DNA from: Aneurinibacillus terranovensis DSM 18919
GTDB lineage: Bacteria > Bacillota > Bacilli > Aneurinibacillales > Aneurinibacillaceae
Assembly: GCF_000430625.1 (NCBI RefSeq)
Contig: NZ_KE387177.1
Coordinates: forward strand, 1 to 46,839
DNA: 46,839 bases
Reading direction: 5' to 3'
Part shown: positions 3,512 through 8,903 of the stretch, piece by piece
Layout: each line of letters opens with the position of its first letter
How positions within the stretch are numbered: position 1 is the first letter of the stretch
Made by a program: the position numbers and the translations under genes
Notes under the pieces: generated by a model
The model's input: only the letters and a program-made list of their open reading frames with translations
Database searches by the model: none
Told to the model about the DNA's origin: nothing

Positions 3512-4624
3512 TCAATGCGTATAAGCCGACACGTTATCCATGTCGATCGCGGAGTGAAGGGCGGCGTTCAGGCCGTTGGCTACGATGTTGGCAATGTCCT
3601 CTACGTAATCGTCCACTTCTTTCGGCGTCACAATCAGATTATGGCCCAGCGGCGCCAATACTTCGTAAATGAGCGCACGTTTCTTCTGTTCATCCAGCTC
3701 ACCGACTAGACCCAGTAACAATTTCCTGTCCTGTTCATTTGGCATATCTTCCTCCGTGATTTTCCTTGTATTTCCAGTCAGGCGAAAACCTTGGGGAACA
3801 AGCCGGCCAGCGGCCTTTGGATGGCGGGCCTCGTTTACCTGCCGTCCGAGATGGCCGAGCAGATAGGTCATGGCATCGTGTACGATGGTTGCTGCCTCTA
3901 CTACGGTTGGGATGCCAACAGCGATAACCGGAATGCCAAGCGTCTCCTTATTCAGCGGCTTCCGCTTATTTCCTACCCCCGAACCCGGACTAATGCCGGT
4001 ATCAGCAATTTGAATCGTAGTGTTCACTCTATCCAGCGACCTGGATGCGAGTGCATCTATCGCAATAATAAAATCCGGTTCAGCTTTCTCCATCACTCCA
4101 TAGACGATTTCACTCGTCTCAATGCCGGTAATCCCGAGCACACCCGGTGAAATCGCGCTAACCGGCCTGTATCCTTCCTCCACCTGCTCCGGCATTAATT
4201 TAAAAAGATGGCGTGTGACCAGCACATTTTCAACGACCATCGGACCGACAGCGTCAGGAGTTACGTTCCAGTTTCCTAGACCAACAATAAGTGCCCCTGC
4301 ATCCTCCCGAATCCCCAGTTCTTTTAAAAACCGGTGAAACTCATGGGCAAAGCGTCTGGTCACGCGGTTCTGCAATTCCGTATCCTGCGTGCGAAGTCCG
4401 GGTATTTCAAGAGAAACATAGCGCCCGGGCAATTTACCGATGGCCTCGGCTCCTTCTGCCGTGAGAATTTCAATCCGGGACACAGTAATCCCGTTATCCT
4501 CTTCCGTCTCATACCTGACTCCGTTGATTTCTTTCGCACCTGTGGATTCATTCGTAAGTTCTCTCGCTTCTACCGCAAGATCGGTTCGTACTCCATACCT
4601 GCTTAAATCAAGCTTTTCTTCCAT
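3512..4624 (-). CDS. gpr: Germination protease GPR
   Basis: GPR degrades the small acid-soluble DNA-protecting proteins during the first minutes of spore germination. It is made as an inactive zymogen in the forespore and loses a short N-terminal propeptide by self-cleavage. The 370 residues are full length. The start ([20 protein letters not shown]) and the end (AYTH) match the Bacillus family closely. The aspartates thought to be catalytic in this A25 family appear in VTPDAVGP and IAIDALASR. The gene is read leftward, away from rpsT, and heads the spore cluster ahead of spoIIP and yqxA. The family is normally driven by sigma-G, but no unambiguous sigma-G promoter was found here. Confidence 0.97.
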
Positions 4625-4683
4625 GCGATCACCTCGTTTTCATCGTTTCCACTTGAATATTGCTTTATACTAAAAAAACATGG

Positions 4684-4713
4684 TTGCAAATATGACGTCC
4701 CTCATGGTATAAT
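4684..4713 (+). promoter_or_regulatory. rpsT promoter
   Basis: A -35 box TTGCAA (4684-4689) and a -10 box TATAAT (4708-4713) are separated by 18 bases, with an extended -10 TGG just before the hexamer. The gene starts 52 bases downstream. This is a strong sigma-A type promoter, fitting a ribosomal protein gene. Confidence 0.85.
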
Positions 4714-4764
4714 TTCCTTTGTTCACTTTATAGAAGTTTCGGATGCACCAAGGAGGTGAATCTA

Positions 4765-5031
4765 ATGCCAAATATTAAATCTGCAATTAAGCGTACAAAA
4801 ACAATTGAAAAACGCCGTGCGCACCGCGCCGCTCAAAAGTCTGCTCTTCGTACAGCTGTTAAAGGAGTAGAAACTGCAGTTCTTTCCGGCAGCATGGAAG
4901 AGGCTAAAGCTGCTCTTAAAGAAGCGAGCAAGCGTTTGGACAAAGCAGTAACCAAGGGATTGATCCACAAAAACGCAGCTTCCCGCAAGAAGTCTCGTTT
5001 GGCTAAAAAGGTTAACGGCATGTCCGCCTAA
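4765..5031 (+). CDS. rpsT: 30S ribosomal protein S20
   Basis: S20 binds 16S rRNA early in 30S assembly. The 88-residue product begins [18 protein letters not shown] and is rich in Lys, Arg and Ala throughout, as in the family, with the conserved tail [15 protein letters not shown]. The ATG at 4765 follows GGAGGTGAATCTA. A longer GTG start at 4756 would lie inside that ribosome binding site and is rejected. It is a monocistronic gene with its own strong promoter and a clear terminator, divergent from gpr as in B. subtilis. In B. subtilis holA follows on the opposite strand; here a biotin operon has been placed between them. Confidence 0.98.
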
Positions 5032-5056
5032 TCATATATGAATGCATTCATATGAA

Positions 5057-5088
5057 GAAAAAGCGACCAATTAATTGGTCGCTTTTTC
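5057..5088 (+). terminator. rpsT terminator
   Basis: GAAAAAGCGACCAA (5057-5070) pairs perfectly with TTGGTCGCTTTTTC (5075-5088) around a TTAA loop. The stem ends in a T-run, 25 bases after the rpsT stop codon. Confidence 0.9.
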
Positions 5089-5162
5089 TCTGCGTATAGA
5101 GAAATCGAGCGTCTTTCTGCACGCAGCAAATGATTGTTTTTTTTGAACCAGTATCCTTTTTC

Positions 5163-5200: not shown

Positions 5201-5231
5201 ATGTTAACTTAATAATAAGTTTGGTTAACAA
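5201..5231 (+). promoter_or_regulatory. BirA (biotin repressor) operator
   Basis: ATGTTAAC (5201-5208) and GTTAACAA (5224-5231) form a perfect TGTTAAC / GTTAACA inverted repeat with a 15-base spacer. This is the known Firmicutes BirA box architecture. It lies at the predicted start of transcription, so biotinyl-AMP-loaded BirA would block transcription of bioF-bioH-bioC when biotin is plentiful. Confidence 0.88.
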
Positions 5232-5268: not shown

Positions 5269-6465
5269 ATGAAAGTTGGAAAGCAGTTGAACTGGGAAGA
5301 GGAAATCAACGCAGAACTTTACCGTTTAGAGGAAATTTCTCAAAAGCGCCATCTCATCACAACAAGATTTGCCGAGCAGCCCTGGCTTATGATAAATGGA
5401 CGTAAGATGCTGAATCTTGCTTCTAATAACTATCTAGGGTATGCAGGGGATGAACGATTGAAAAAATCAATGATTGAAGCGGTAAACACATACGGTGCAG
5501 GAGCAACAGCATCACGCTTAATTGTTGGTAATCATCCGCTTTATGAGAAAGCGGAAACAGCGCTCGTTAATTGGAAGAAGGCAGAAGCAGGGATTATTAT
5601 CAACAACGGCTATACTGCGAATCTAGGGATTATTTCTGCACTGCTGCGCCGTGATGATTTTGTTTTTAGCGATAAGCTGAACCACGCAAGCATTGTCGAC
5701 GGCGCTGTCTTAAGCCGTGCGAAGCACCAACGCTATCGGCATCATGATTTAAATCATTTAGAAGCACTATTAAAAAAAGCACCGACAGAAAAACGAAAGC
5801 TAATCGTGACAGATACTATCTTCAGCATGGATGGTGATCTCGCTCATCTTAAAGAGATTGTTGTGTTAAAGGAAAGGTATAACGCGATTTTAATGATTGA
5901 TGAAGCACACGCAAGCGGCATCTATGGCAAAAACGGGGAAGGTTATGCCCATCACCTCAATCTTCAGAACAAAGTAGATATTCAAATGGGAACATTCAGC
6001 AAAGCGCTCGGTTCATTCGGCGCCTATGTTGTCGGGAAAAAGTGGCTCATAGACTATTTAACGAACCGAATGCGCGGGTTCATTTATTCAACGGCACTTC
6101 CTCCTGCCATACTCGGTGCTGCAAAAGCTGCGATTGAAATTGTGCAAGAAGAACCGGAACGTCGTACACTGCTCCAAACGCATGCCGAGTATTTTAGAGA
6201 ATCATTGATGGATTACGGGTTTAATATTTGTGGAAGTCAGTCACAAATTGTGCCAATTATAATTGGAGAAAACGAAAAAACTATGAAGTTTGCCGGGTGT
6301 CTGCAGAAAGAAGGAATTGCTGCTATTCCTGTCAGGCCACCTACCGTTCCTGAAAATGAAGGGAGAATTCGTTTTACCGTGACAGCTGTCCATGTGAAAC
6401 AAGATCTTGATTGGGCAATTAAAAAAATTGCTCTTGTTGGAAAAGAGATGGGGGTGATTGGATGA
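5269..6465 (+). CDS. bioF: 8-amino-7-oxononanoate synthase
   Basis: BioF is a PLP enzyme that condenses pimeloyl-ACP (or pimeloyl-CoA) with alanine, the first step in building the biotin rings. The 398-residue product has the alpha-oxoamine synthase signature: LASNNYLGY near the N-terminus, the DEAHASGIYG segment that positions PLP, and the lysine in TFSKALGSFG (about Lys245) that forms the Schiff base. The ATG at 5269 follows a run of seven G and GAG; an upstream TTG at 5221 lies inside the BirA operator and is rejected. It is first in a BirA-controlled operon and its stop overlaps the bioH start. Base composition seems more A+T-rich than the flanking com and spore genes. Confidence 0.95.
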   Translation: MKVGKQLNWEEEINAELYRLEEISQKRHLITTRFAEQPWLMINGRKMLNLASNNYLGYAGDERLKKSMIEAVNTYGAGATASRLIVGNHPLYEKAETALVNWKKAEAGIIINNGYTANLGIISALLRRDDFVFSDKLNHASIVDGAVLSRAKHQRYRHHDLNHLEALLKKAPTEKRKLIVTDTIFSMDGDLAHLKEIVVLKERYNAILMIDEAHASGIYGKNGEGYAHHLNLQNKVDIQMGTFSKALGSFGAYVVGKKWLIDYLTNRMRGFIYSTALPPAILGAAKAAIEIVQEEPERRTLLQTHAEYFRESLMDYGFNICGSQSQIVPIIIGENEKTMKFAGCLQKEGIAAIPVRPPTVPENEGRIRFTVTAVHVKQDLDWAIKKIALVGKEMGVIG

Positions 6466-6929
6466 AACAGTTGCATCTAGTGATGCTTCCTGGTTGGAGA
6501 ATGGAAAAGGCAGCGTTTCAACCGTTAATCGAGCCACTCTCTGAAGTATTTCAGCTTTTATTTGTAGAATGGAGAGGCGTGAAAGCTCCAAGTGATTTTA
6601 AAGAGCGGGTCATAAAAAAAATCATTTCTGTTGGGGAGCCTGTTTTTTTACTTGGTTGGTCATTAGGATCACTTGCGGCACTTGAAATTGCAAGTACATA
6701 TCCCAAAAGCATAAAGGGTCTTATACTGATTGGCGGAACGAGTCGTTTTACGAGCGGTGAACAATATCCGTTTGGCTGGCATCCGCGCATTCTTGAGCGT
6801 ATGAAAAAGCAAATGCAGCAGAACAAGGAGAAGACACTTACTGTTTTTTACGAAGCGATGTTTTCTGGGACCGGAAAGGAAGAAGGTTTAAAAAGTTTGC
6901 GCAAAAGGGAGTGTACTCATGATCGATAA
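6462..6929 (+). pseudogene. bioH: BioH-like pimeloyl-ACP methyl ester esterase, 3' part deleted
   Basis: Intact BioH-type enzymes are alpha/beta hydrolases of about 240-260 residues that remove the methyl group BioC puts on the growing pimeloyl chain. This frame has only 155 codons. It keeps the N-terminal core (HLVMLPGWRMEK) and the nucleophile elbow LGWSLGS (Ser67), and the sequence runs on normally to about residue 143. After that only a short tail (KRECTHDR) remains. The family segment that carries the catalytic Asp and His is missing. The 11-base overlap with bioC is intact, which points to an internal in-frame deletion, not a frameshift. The product is probably inactive as an esterase unless it has been repurposed. 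Family membership is clear; loss of function is inferred. Confidence 0.75.
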
Positions 6930-7734
6930 ACAGCTTTTACGAAAGCGGTTCAGTGAACATGCCAAAACATATGATGAGTATGCCAATGTTCAAAAAAAGA
7001 TGGCAAAGGAATTAATTCATTCGCTTTCTAAAAAGAGGTGTGAAGAAAAAATTAATATCCTTGAAATCGGCTGTGGAACTGGTTATTTTACGAATTTATT
7101 ATGTGAAGCATTTCCGAAGGCGAGAATTACCGCTGTTGATTTGGCACCCGGAATGATTAAAATGGCAAAAGAGAAAATGAATGAGGAACGTATTACTTTT
7201 TTATGCGGTGATATTGAAGAAATGACGCTTGAAGGAAGTTATGATTTTATTGTTTCCAACGCAACGTTTCAATGGCTGAATAATCTTCAGACAGTCATTG
7301 AACGGTTATGTCAATTATTAAAGCGGGACGGGAGCCTTTTATTTTCAACGTTTGGAAACAAAACCTTTCACGAGCTTCATACTTCCTATGAACGTACAAA
7401 AGAAAAGCTTCAGCTTCCAATAAGCAGTTCACCAGGACAATCGTTTTACTCTCTTGAAGAGCTATATCAAGTTTGTGAACAGGCACTGATTTCTTCAGCG
7501 GCATTTCCATTTGAAATAACAGGAAGACAACAGCTCGAGCTAGAGTATTTTCAGACGGTACGCGCATTTTTTGCATCAATTAAAAAGATTGGGGCAAATA
7601 ACAGCAACGAAGAAAACTCCTGCCAGCGCCCTTCTTTTTTCCGAGAATTAATCAATACGTACGAAACAAATTATCGGGATGAAACCGGCGTGAAAGCGAC
7701 CTATCATTGTTTATTTATAACTATTACTATATAG
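6919..7734 (+). CDS. bioC: Malonyl-ACP O-methyltransferase BioC
   Basis: BioC methylates malonyl-ACP so that the fatty acid synthesis machinery can accept it and extend it to pimeloyl-ACP methyl ester. The 271-residue product opens with the family start RKRFSEHAKTYDEYANVQKKM, which runs from about residue 8. It has the SAM-binding motif ILEIGCGTGYFT (about 48-59), the acidic loop AVDLAPGM, and the VSNATFQWL segment typical of BioC. The start overlaps the end of the bioH remnant by 11 bases, as in the bioFHC arrangement of Bacillus cereus-type operons. No bioB follows: the next gene, holA, is convergent. bioA, bioB and bioD must therefore lie elsewhere if the pathway is complete. Confidence 0.92.
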   Translation: MIDKQLLRKRFSEHAKTYDEYANVQKKMAKELIHSLSKKRCEEKINILEIGCGTGYFTNLLCEAFPKARITAVDLAPGMIKMAKEKMNEERITFLCGDIEEMTLEGSYDFIVSNATFQWLNNLQTVIERLCQLLKRDGSLLFSTFGNKTFHELHTSYERTKEKLQLPISSSPGQSFYSLEELYQVCEQALISSAAFPFEITGRQQLELEYFQTVRAFFASIKKIGANNSNEENSCQRPSFFRELINTYETNYRDETGVKATYHCLFITITI

Positions 7735-7788: not shown

Positions 7789-8820
7789 CTATACGCTCAC
7801 CATTTCTTTCATCCCCATAATAATTAACTCAAGGGCAAGCGTTTTATCAATCTGCCCTGTTTTTATTCTGTAATCTTCTTCAGCAAGTTTTTGTATAATC
7901 CGCTTGAGCGCTAATTCACTAAATAAACGTGATTGTTCGGCCGCCAGCTTTGCAACGTACGGGTGAACCCCAAGCATAGAAGCCATTTGCTGCGGGGAAT
8001 ACCCTTTAGGCTGCAAAATTTTAATTTGAAGAAGAATGCGAAACTGGCGGGCGAGCAGCGTGAGAATTTTCAACGGTTCTTCTTTATTCATCTGCAGGTC
8101 GTAATAAATGCGCATGGCGTTTTCCAGCTGGAGACGGGCAACCTGGTCAACGAGACGAAACACATCCTGTTCAAGTTGCCGGCTGCCGAGAAGCCCGACA
8201 ACCTCTGGTGTGATGGTTTCCCCCTCCCCGACATACGTCGCCATTTTCTCTATCTCCTGATTCAGGCGGCGAAGATCCCCTCCCGTCATCGTAATTAACA
8301 TGCGGGCGGCTTCTGGCATAACACTCGCGTTATGTTTGGCCGCGCGGCGTGAAATCCAGTGGACCAGTTCATCATCTTTCAGCGGCATGAACGGAACAAC
8401 AACAGAGTTTTTTAGCAATGCCTTTACAGTTTTTTTTCGTTCGTCCAGCTTTTCCTCCGGCACTTCGAGAATAAATGTAGTATAGTCCGGGGGATTGTTT
8501 AGGTAATTCAACAGACTATCAAGATTGTGCTCTGATGACTCTTTCACTTTTCCACCGGTTAGAAACAAAGCCTGTGTGGCACGCACCAATCTTTTCTCAC
8601 CCATAAAGGGAAATGTCTCAGCATCCTGCAGCGCAGCCTGCACCGCTGTCTCGCGCAAATCGTATACGCTGTAATTAAAGTCCCGGCTTGCCTCATCGAT
8701 GACCTGCTGCTGTATCATCGTAATGACTTCGTCCATCAAATACTGCTCTTTGCCATAAAATAAATAAACAGGCGCGACTTTCCCCTGTTTAATCTCCCGG
8801 GCCAACTGGCGTACATCCAT
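7789..8820 (-). CDS. holA: DNA polymerase III subunit delta
   Basis: HolA is the subunit of the clamp loader that opens the beta sliding clamp. The 343-residue product starts MDVRQLAREIKQGKVAPVYL and contains the family motif YLFYGKEQYLMDE, a MTGGDLRRLNQE segment and a C-terminal helical domain. The ATG at 8820 follows GAGGTG; the frame stays open for 25 codons further but that part has no ribosome binding site and overlaps a terminator. In B. subtilis holA sits between comEC and rpsT. Here it keeps that place, but a sigma/anti-sigma pair has entered on the comEC side and the biotin operon on the rpsT side. Confidence 0.95.
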   Translation of the reverse strand: MDVRQLAREIKQGKVAPVYLFYGKEQYLMDEVITMIQQQVIDEASRDFNYSVYDLRETAVQAALQDAETFPFMGEKRLVRATQALFLTGGKVKESSEHNLDSLLNYLNNPPDYTTFILEVPEEKLDERKKTVKALLKNSVVVPFMPLKDDELVHWISRRAAKHNASVMPEAARMLITMTGGDLRRLNQEIEKMATYVGEGETITPEVVGLLGSRQLEQDVFRLVDQVARLQLENAMRIYYDLQMNKEEPLKILTLLARQFRILLQIKILQPKGYSPQQMASMLGVHPYVAKLAAEQSRLFSELALKRIIQKLAEEDYRIKTGQIDKTLALELIIMGMKEMVSV

Positions 8821-8867
8821 GATTCTCACCTCGTTCCTCATTATACCTAAATCAGGCTTTTGAACAC

Positions 8868-8903
8868 AAAAAACCATGACGGTTTGTGTCGCCACGGTTT
8901 TTT
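8868..8903 (-). terminator. Terminator between the anti-sigma gene and holA
   Basis: AAAAAACC (8868-8875) pairs with GGTTTTTT (8896-8903), and two further pairs follow inward past one mismatch. Read leftward it ends the sigma/anti-sigma transcript and leaves a T-run before the holA start. Confidence 0.6.

Follow-up and report, generated by a model that had tools for sequence, protein, structure and literature searches.

Known biotin operons and the locus of Aneurinibacillus terranovensis

In the biotin pathway the esterase step is regarded as the wild card, whereby bioC is conserved and its partner is swapped among unrelated hydrolases, as described in the available parts of two papers (PMC5438404, PMC3494674). 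According to the accessible part of one of them, bioH of Escherichia coli is freestanding and lies outside BirA control (PMC3494674). E. coli BioH (PDB 1m33, 4etw) is the best solved match of the full-length BioH from Pseudalkalibacillus decolorationis (L046), with 60.4 bits, and is a complete enzyme, unlike the remnant that is the subject of this analysis. P. decolorationis and Bacillus taeanensis (L045) harbor the operons that are nearest in sequence to our locus. These have the gene order bioA-bioD-bioF-bioH-bioC and share with our locus the ATGA or TGATG-like gene junctions, and the identities amount to 73–78% for BioF, 61–68% for the N-terminal part of BioH, and 68% for BioC. They differ from our locus in that BioH is full length (247 and 246 aa), bioA and bioD belong to the same gene row, and a BirA-type box was not found within the 8.8 kb examined. 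Bacillus pakistanensis DSM 24834 (L047) has, like the strain analyzed here, a stand-alone bioF-bioH-bioC behind a perfect BirA-type box, at a nearly equal distance between box and bioF (63 versus 67 bp), and in both strains bioD-bioA-type genes form a separate boxed unit. However, BioH of B. pakistanensis is full length (248 aa), and its proteins are 57–71% identical to those encoded at our locus. A literature search yielded nothing on a bioH pseudogene beside BioC nor on biotin in Aneurinibacillus that touches the present case.

The window, i.e., the whole stretch of DNA that was analyzed, comprises 46,839 nucleotides from A. terranovensis DSM 18919 (contig NZ_KE387177.1, positions 1–46,839). 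Within it, three overlapping plus-strand genes, namely bioF, an ORF of 155 codons, and bioC, sit between rpsT (ORF 4756–5031) on the upstream side and holA (7789–8895, minus strand) on the downstream side. NCBIfam cut-offs were applied for TIGR00858 (8-amino-7-oxononanoate synthase) and TIGR02072 (malonyl-ACP O-methyltransferase). Both bioF (5269–6465, 398 aa; 471.8 bits versus a cut-off of 426.45) and bioC (6919–7734, 271 aa; 232.3 bits versus 184.95) exceeded these cut-offs and are intact. The ORF between them (6462–6929) overlaps bioF by 4 bp (ATGA) and presents a bioH remnant without the Asp and His of the catalytic triad. A BirA operator-like dyad, TGTTAAC-N15-GTTAACA, is located at 5202–5230 (no strand assigned) and has 0 mismatches. 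Thus, the perfect BirA box, the intact bioF and bioC, and the bioH of 155 codons, all of which had been claimed in a first-pass annotation of this DNA, were confirmed. Judged by the dyad, the two intact genes, and the gene overlaps, the three genes form an operon that would be controlled by BirA. In its vicinity, a sigma-70 promoter scan revealed no distinct signal (10 promoter-like sites versus 6.3 expected), and a terminator scan gave 0 terminators.

Distribution and origin of the operon

The occurrence of BioH was surveyed by profile in 398 Bacilli genomes at a match threshold of E 1e-20 or better, at which weaker fragments would escape, and 120 of these genomes yielded a match. Among the matches listed, the frame of A. 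terranovensis is the shortest, with 168 codons from stop to stop, followed by one of 213 codons. A close relative with a short BioH of the 155-residue type, which the first-pass annotation had named as the case contrary to its reading, does not occur among the matches listed. In a sample of 15 genomes of the order, our strain included, BioB is present in all 15 and BioW in ten, from which our strain is absent. BioC occurs in three, i.e., in our strain, G004, and G011, and the latter two both carry a full-length BioH. G006 from the same family and G012 from the same order have BioB, and at the thresholds used neither BioW nor BioC was detected in them.

In the 14 other genomes of the order, rpsT and holA are directly adjacent without exception, and the operon is found between them in A. 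terranovensis only. Its G+C content is 40.6% compared to a window median of 46.9%, and 0.45% of 886 overlapping windows of equal size are as low. The sequences nearest to its BioC come from other Bacilli (68, 67, and 63% identity); BioC of G011 and G004 shows 54 and 42% identity, respectively. The simplest reading would be that a lineage in which BioW prevails acquired the operon horizontally.

The bioH remnant and its deletion

The 155-aa product matches TIGR01738 (BioH) at positions 6–138 of 245 only, with 72.6 bits versus a cut-off of 206.95, and the ORF is real and constitutes the N-terminal 60% of BioH. The Ser nucleophile is retained as Ser67 in the motif GWSLGS (motif residues 65–69), and the columns of Asp194 and His223 (L046 numbering), which are invariant in nine relatives, are absent. 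The partial profile match, the missing columns, and the dyad bear out the earlier claim that this BirA-type operon contains a remnant of BioH devoid of the triad Asp and His. Within the N-terminal 140 codons there is no stop and no frameshift. The remnant ceases to align with its relatives near residue 143, and the last ~11–13 residues of the ORF are out of the native frame. According to the alignments, the section in the native BioH frame (~140 residues) extends over 6462–6886 on the plus strand, with the junction between about 6880 and 6893. The predicted model of the full-length L046 BioH is confident (mean pLDDT 93.0), whereas that of the remnant has a mean pLDDT of 69.9, with residues 93–108 and 133–155 under 50. 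If made, the remnant protein would be a partial alpha/beta-hydrolase that is presumably incapable of esterase work.

In each of the nine aligned relatives, bioF and bioC likewise flank the bioH gene, whose product has 234–254 aa. The distance from the bioH start to the bioC start is 457 bp in A. terranovensis versus 740, 740, and 739 bp in the three nearest relatives and 704–749 bp in the other four of seven relatives measured, so that ~283 bp are missing from bioH. Provided that the ancestral spacing equaled that of the two nearest relatives, this loss is not a multiple of three. In the -1 frame, the sequence before bioC (6887–6922, plus strand) reads FKKFAQKGVYS plus stop, which resembles the C-termini of the relatives (e.g., IIKFLQKDEKQ and ITTFIQEGVR) and keeps a phenylalanine that is invariant in the nine relatives. 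This tail is spaced from bioC as in the native gene, and its stop codon, TGA at 6920–6922, forms an ATGA overlap with bioC. The three frames were compared with the relatives in an anchored tail test, in which the position was fixed by the distance from bioC, bioC-encoded residues were left out, and 2000 random open peptides served as the reference. Of the 2000 random peptides, 0 equaled the -1 frame when the three nearest relatives were used and 1 did so when all nine were included. In contrast, 181 and 221 of 2000, respectively, equaled or surpassed the ORF frame, and for the third frame 545 and 458 of 2000 were as good. Wide anchoring weakened the signal, with the -1 frame equaled by 29 of 2000 random peptides and the ORF frame by 455 and 83.

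The first-pass annotation had proposed an in-frame deletion of about 90 codons that kept the conserved overlap with bioC. Such a deletion might have left a short, still useful BioH, since the ORF remains open until its stop within bioC (11-bp overlap), and bioH also ends just inside bioC in B. pakistanensis and at loci L048 and L049. Moreover, when anchoring was dropped altogether, the ORF frame had a slight lead, being equaled by 14 of 3000 random peptides versus 85 of 3000 for the -1 frame. This lead is due to its tail REC, which is similar to the conserved EC in the last helix, a match that would require a second deletion of about 36 bp. However, once anchored, the ORF-frame tail is no better than chance, its terminal HD derives from the start codons of bioC itself, and Asp and His are absent either way. 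We therefore rejected the in-frame deletion, which we regard as highly improbable. From the native tail in the -1 frame we conclude that the deletion was frameshifting and that the end of the ORF as well as its 11-bp overlap with bioC are by-products, i.e., read-through past the native TGA. At the junction, positions 6887–6893 read GG T TTA AAA in the ORF frame, which we take to be a classical -1 slippery heptamer, and -1 slippage at this site would lead into the frame of the native C-terminus. This is probably chance, since the slipped product would still lack Asp and His.

Compared to the two nearest relatives, the N-terminal 143 residues are not accelerated (own-unique to other-unique residues 8:18, 8:14, 12:18, and 10:11), and the same holds for bioF and bioC. 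Since the rest of bioH is not accelerated, the deletion is probably recent; either the remnant is recent or its N-terminal part is still under selection. The lack of acceleration would also fit an assembly or sequencing fault in the draft, which consists of 98 contigs. However, the site lies 6.5 kb inside a 73-kb contig, and short-read assemblers seldom lose 283 bp within unique sequence. In addition, the remnant has an independent oddity, namely Arg at residue 13, directly behind the conserved GW, a position that is occupied by G (21), S (7), or A (1) in all 29 full-length relatives examined in the class survey. A fault of this kind is thus very unlikely. Overall, bioH is with high probability a pseudogene that arose by a frameshifting deletion of ~283 bp, in a bioF-bioH-bioC operon that was inserted between rpsT and holA.

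Being a pseudogene would be compatible with a residual role, namely that of a translated leader which is retained because it couples the translation of bioF to that of bioC. The remnant overlaps bioF as ATGA, the native end of bioH overlaps bioC in the same manner, and the ribosome-binding sequence of bioC, AGGGAG, is located within the surviving bioH tail. Translational coupling is discussed for bio operons of such kind in the available part of PMC5438404. On the other hand, any open leader would serve this purpose, and we consider such a role unlikely.

Remaining biotin genes and the partner of BioC

The dyad pattern has two perfect sites genome-wide, one before the bioF-bioH-bioC operon and one before bioB (C18:56900). 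A BirA-type site with one mismatch (C25:44879) precedes bioY-bioD-bioA. A second one-mismatch site (C37), situated within a flagellar region, appears to be spurious. When up to two mismatches are allowed, the dyad is not commoner than its reversed control (23 versus 33 sites per strand), and thus only the best sites are meaningful. In an NCBIfam scan bioB, bioD, and bioA exceeded their family cut-offs, whereas the BioY-like protein had no match at the threshold used and was named from its sequence and place. The BirA ligase is encoded on C11, and its N-terminus appears to carry a helix-turn-helix-like stretch. Among the genes that the first-pass annotation had listed as informative, bioA, bioB, and bioD were thus found, together with the bioY-like gene. 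BioW gave zero matches in the genome, and for BioG (PF04301) the best match had 13.2 bits, under the cut-off of 27. A second BioH was not found in the genome at the threshold used either, as the BioH profile (A1) scored 193 bits at the remnant and 25 bits at the next place. BioC is therefore left without a known partner esterase after the search for BioH, BioG, and BioW.

For the earlier statement that BioC needs a partner, so that either an unlinked enzyme replaces BioH or the pathway decays, both consequences were upheld as right. The likeliest of the two is a loss of the pathway with uptake of biotin by BioY. The course of events was most probably that the bioF-bioH-bioC operon entered the genome between rpsT and holA, and that a single frameshifting deletion of ~283 bp took most of the second half of bioH, comprising helices and the parts that bear Asp and His. 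Left behind are a short native C-terminal piece and the bioC ribosome-binding site. BioC would then still be made, and methylated pimeloyl-ACP would stay unreleased unless another hydrolase cleaves it. As an outcome, the strain would depend on biotin or a late intermediate, which may be taken up via BioY. Altogether, this looks like ordinary recent gene loss. The other bio genes look intact, which would be equally expected if the pathway runs with another esterase.

It is possible, though we hold it for the less probable course, that the pathway still runs since an unlinked alpha/beta-hydrolase took over the pimeloyl-ACP methyl ester esterase step and made bioH dispensable; this would be compatible with a pseudogene as well. 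The genes bioF, bioC, bioB, bioD, and bioA are intact and BirA-boxed, and PF00561 has 12 matching places in the genome, 11 of which are over the cut-off, the remnant among them. On reading, the PF00561 proteins seem to include MetX-like, PhaC-like, and carboxylesterase-like sequences. Six of them were scanned against NCBIfam and none reached a cut-off, and none of these hydrolases can be singled out as the partner of BioC. Precedents are BioG and BioK and an esterase of P. aeruginosa that gained BioH activity by simple substitutions (accessible part of PMC3494674), as well as the promiscuous EstN1, which complements delta-bioH (accessible part of PMC6138646). Against a replacement, no other hydrolase of the genome resembles BioH beyond 26 bits, and neither of two weaker BirA-like sites that were inspected (L032, L033) lies at a hydrolase gene. 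That a host hydrolase from a family not yet linked to biotin took over after the gain of the operon, so that the strain was caught in the midst of the replacement, seems rather doubtful to us. Of the readings considered here, only a takeover by an unlinked hydrolase is of wider interest. A BioC next to a freshly broken BioH presents a natural test of how esterase swaps begin, i.e., whether the loss of bioH follows a takeover by a host hydrolase or whether biotin dependence sets in first for a time.

The missing half of bioH might also have been located elsewhere in the genome. This was rejected, as pieces of the C-terminal type that were found with the BioH profile on C3 and C6 (20 and 18 bits, respectively) resemble, in their reading frames, portions of other decayed hydrolases and not of BioH. 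The one on C6, near the contig end (L056, 5301–5546), is an alpha/beta-hydrolase remnant in which the Ser motif GNSIGG is joined directly to the Asp/His part. It resembles the product of an internal deletion and lies near an extradiol-dioxygenase-like gene. The one on C3 (L057, about 4590–5158, minus strand) is a decayed hydrolase in two frames, with a dienelactone-hydrolase-like start and a hydrolase C-terminus in another frame.
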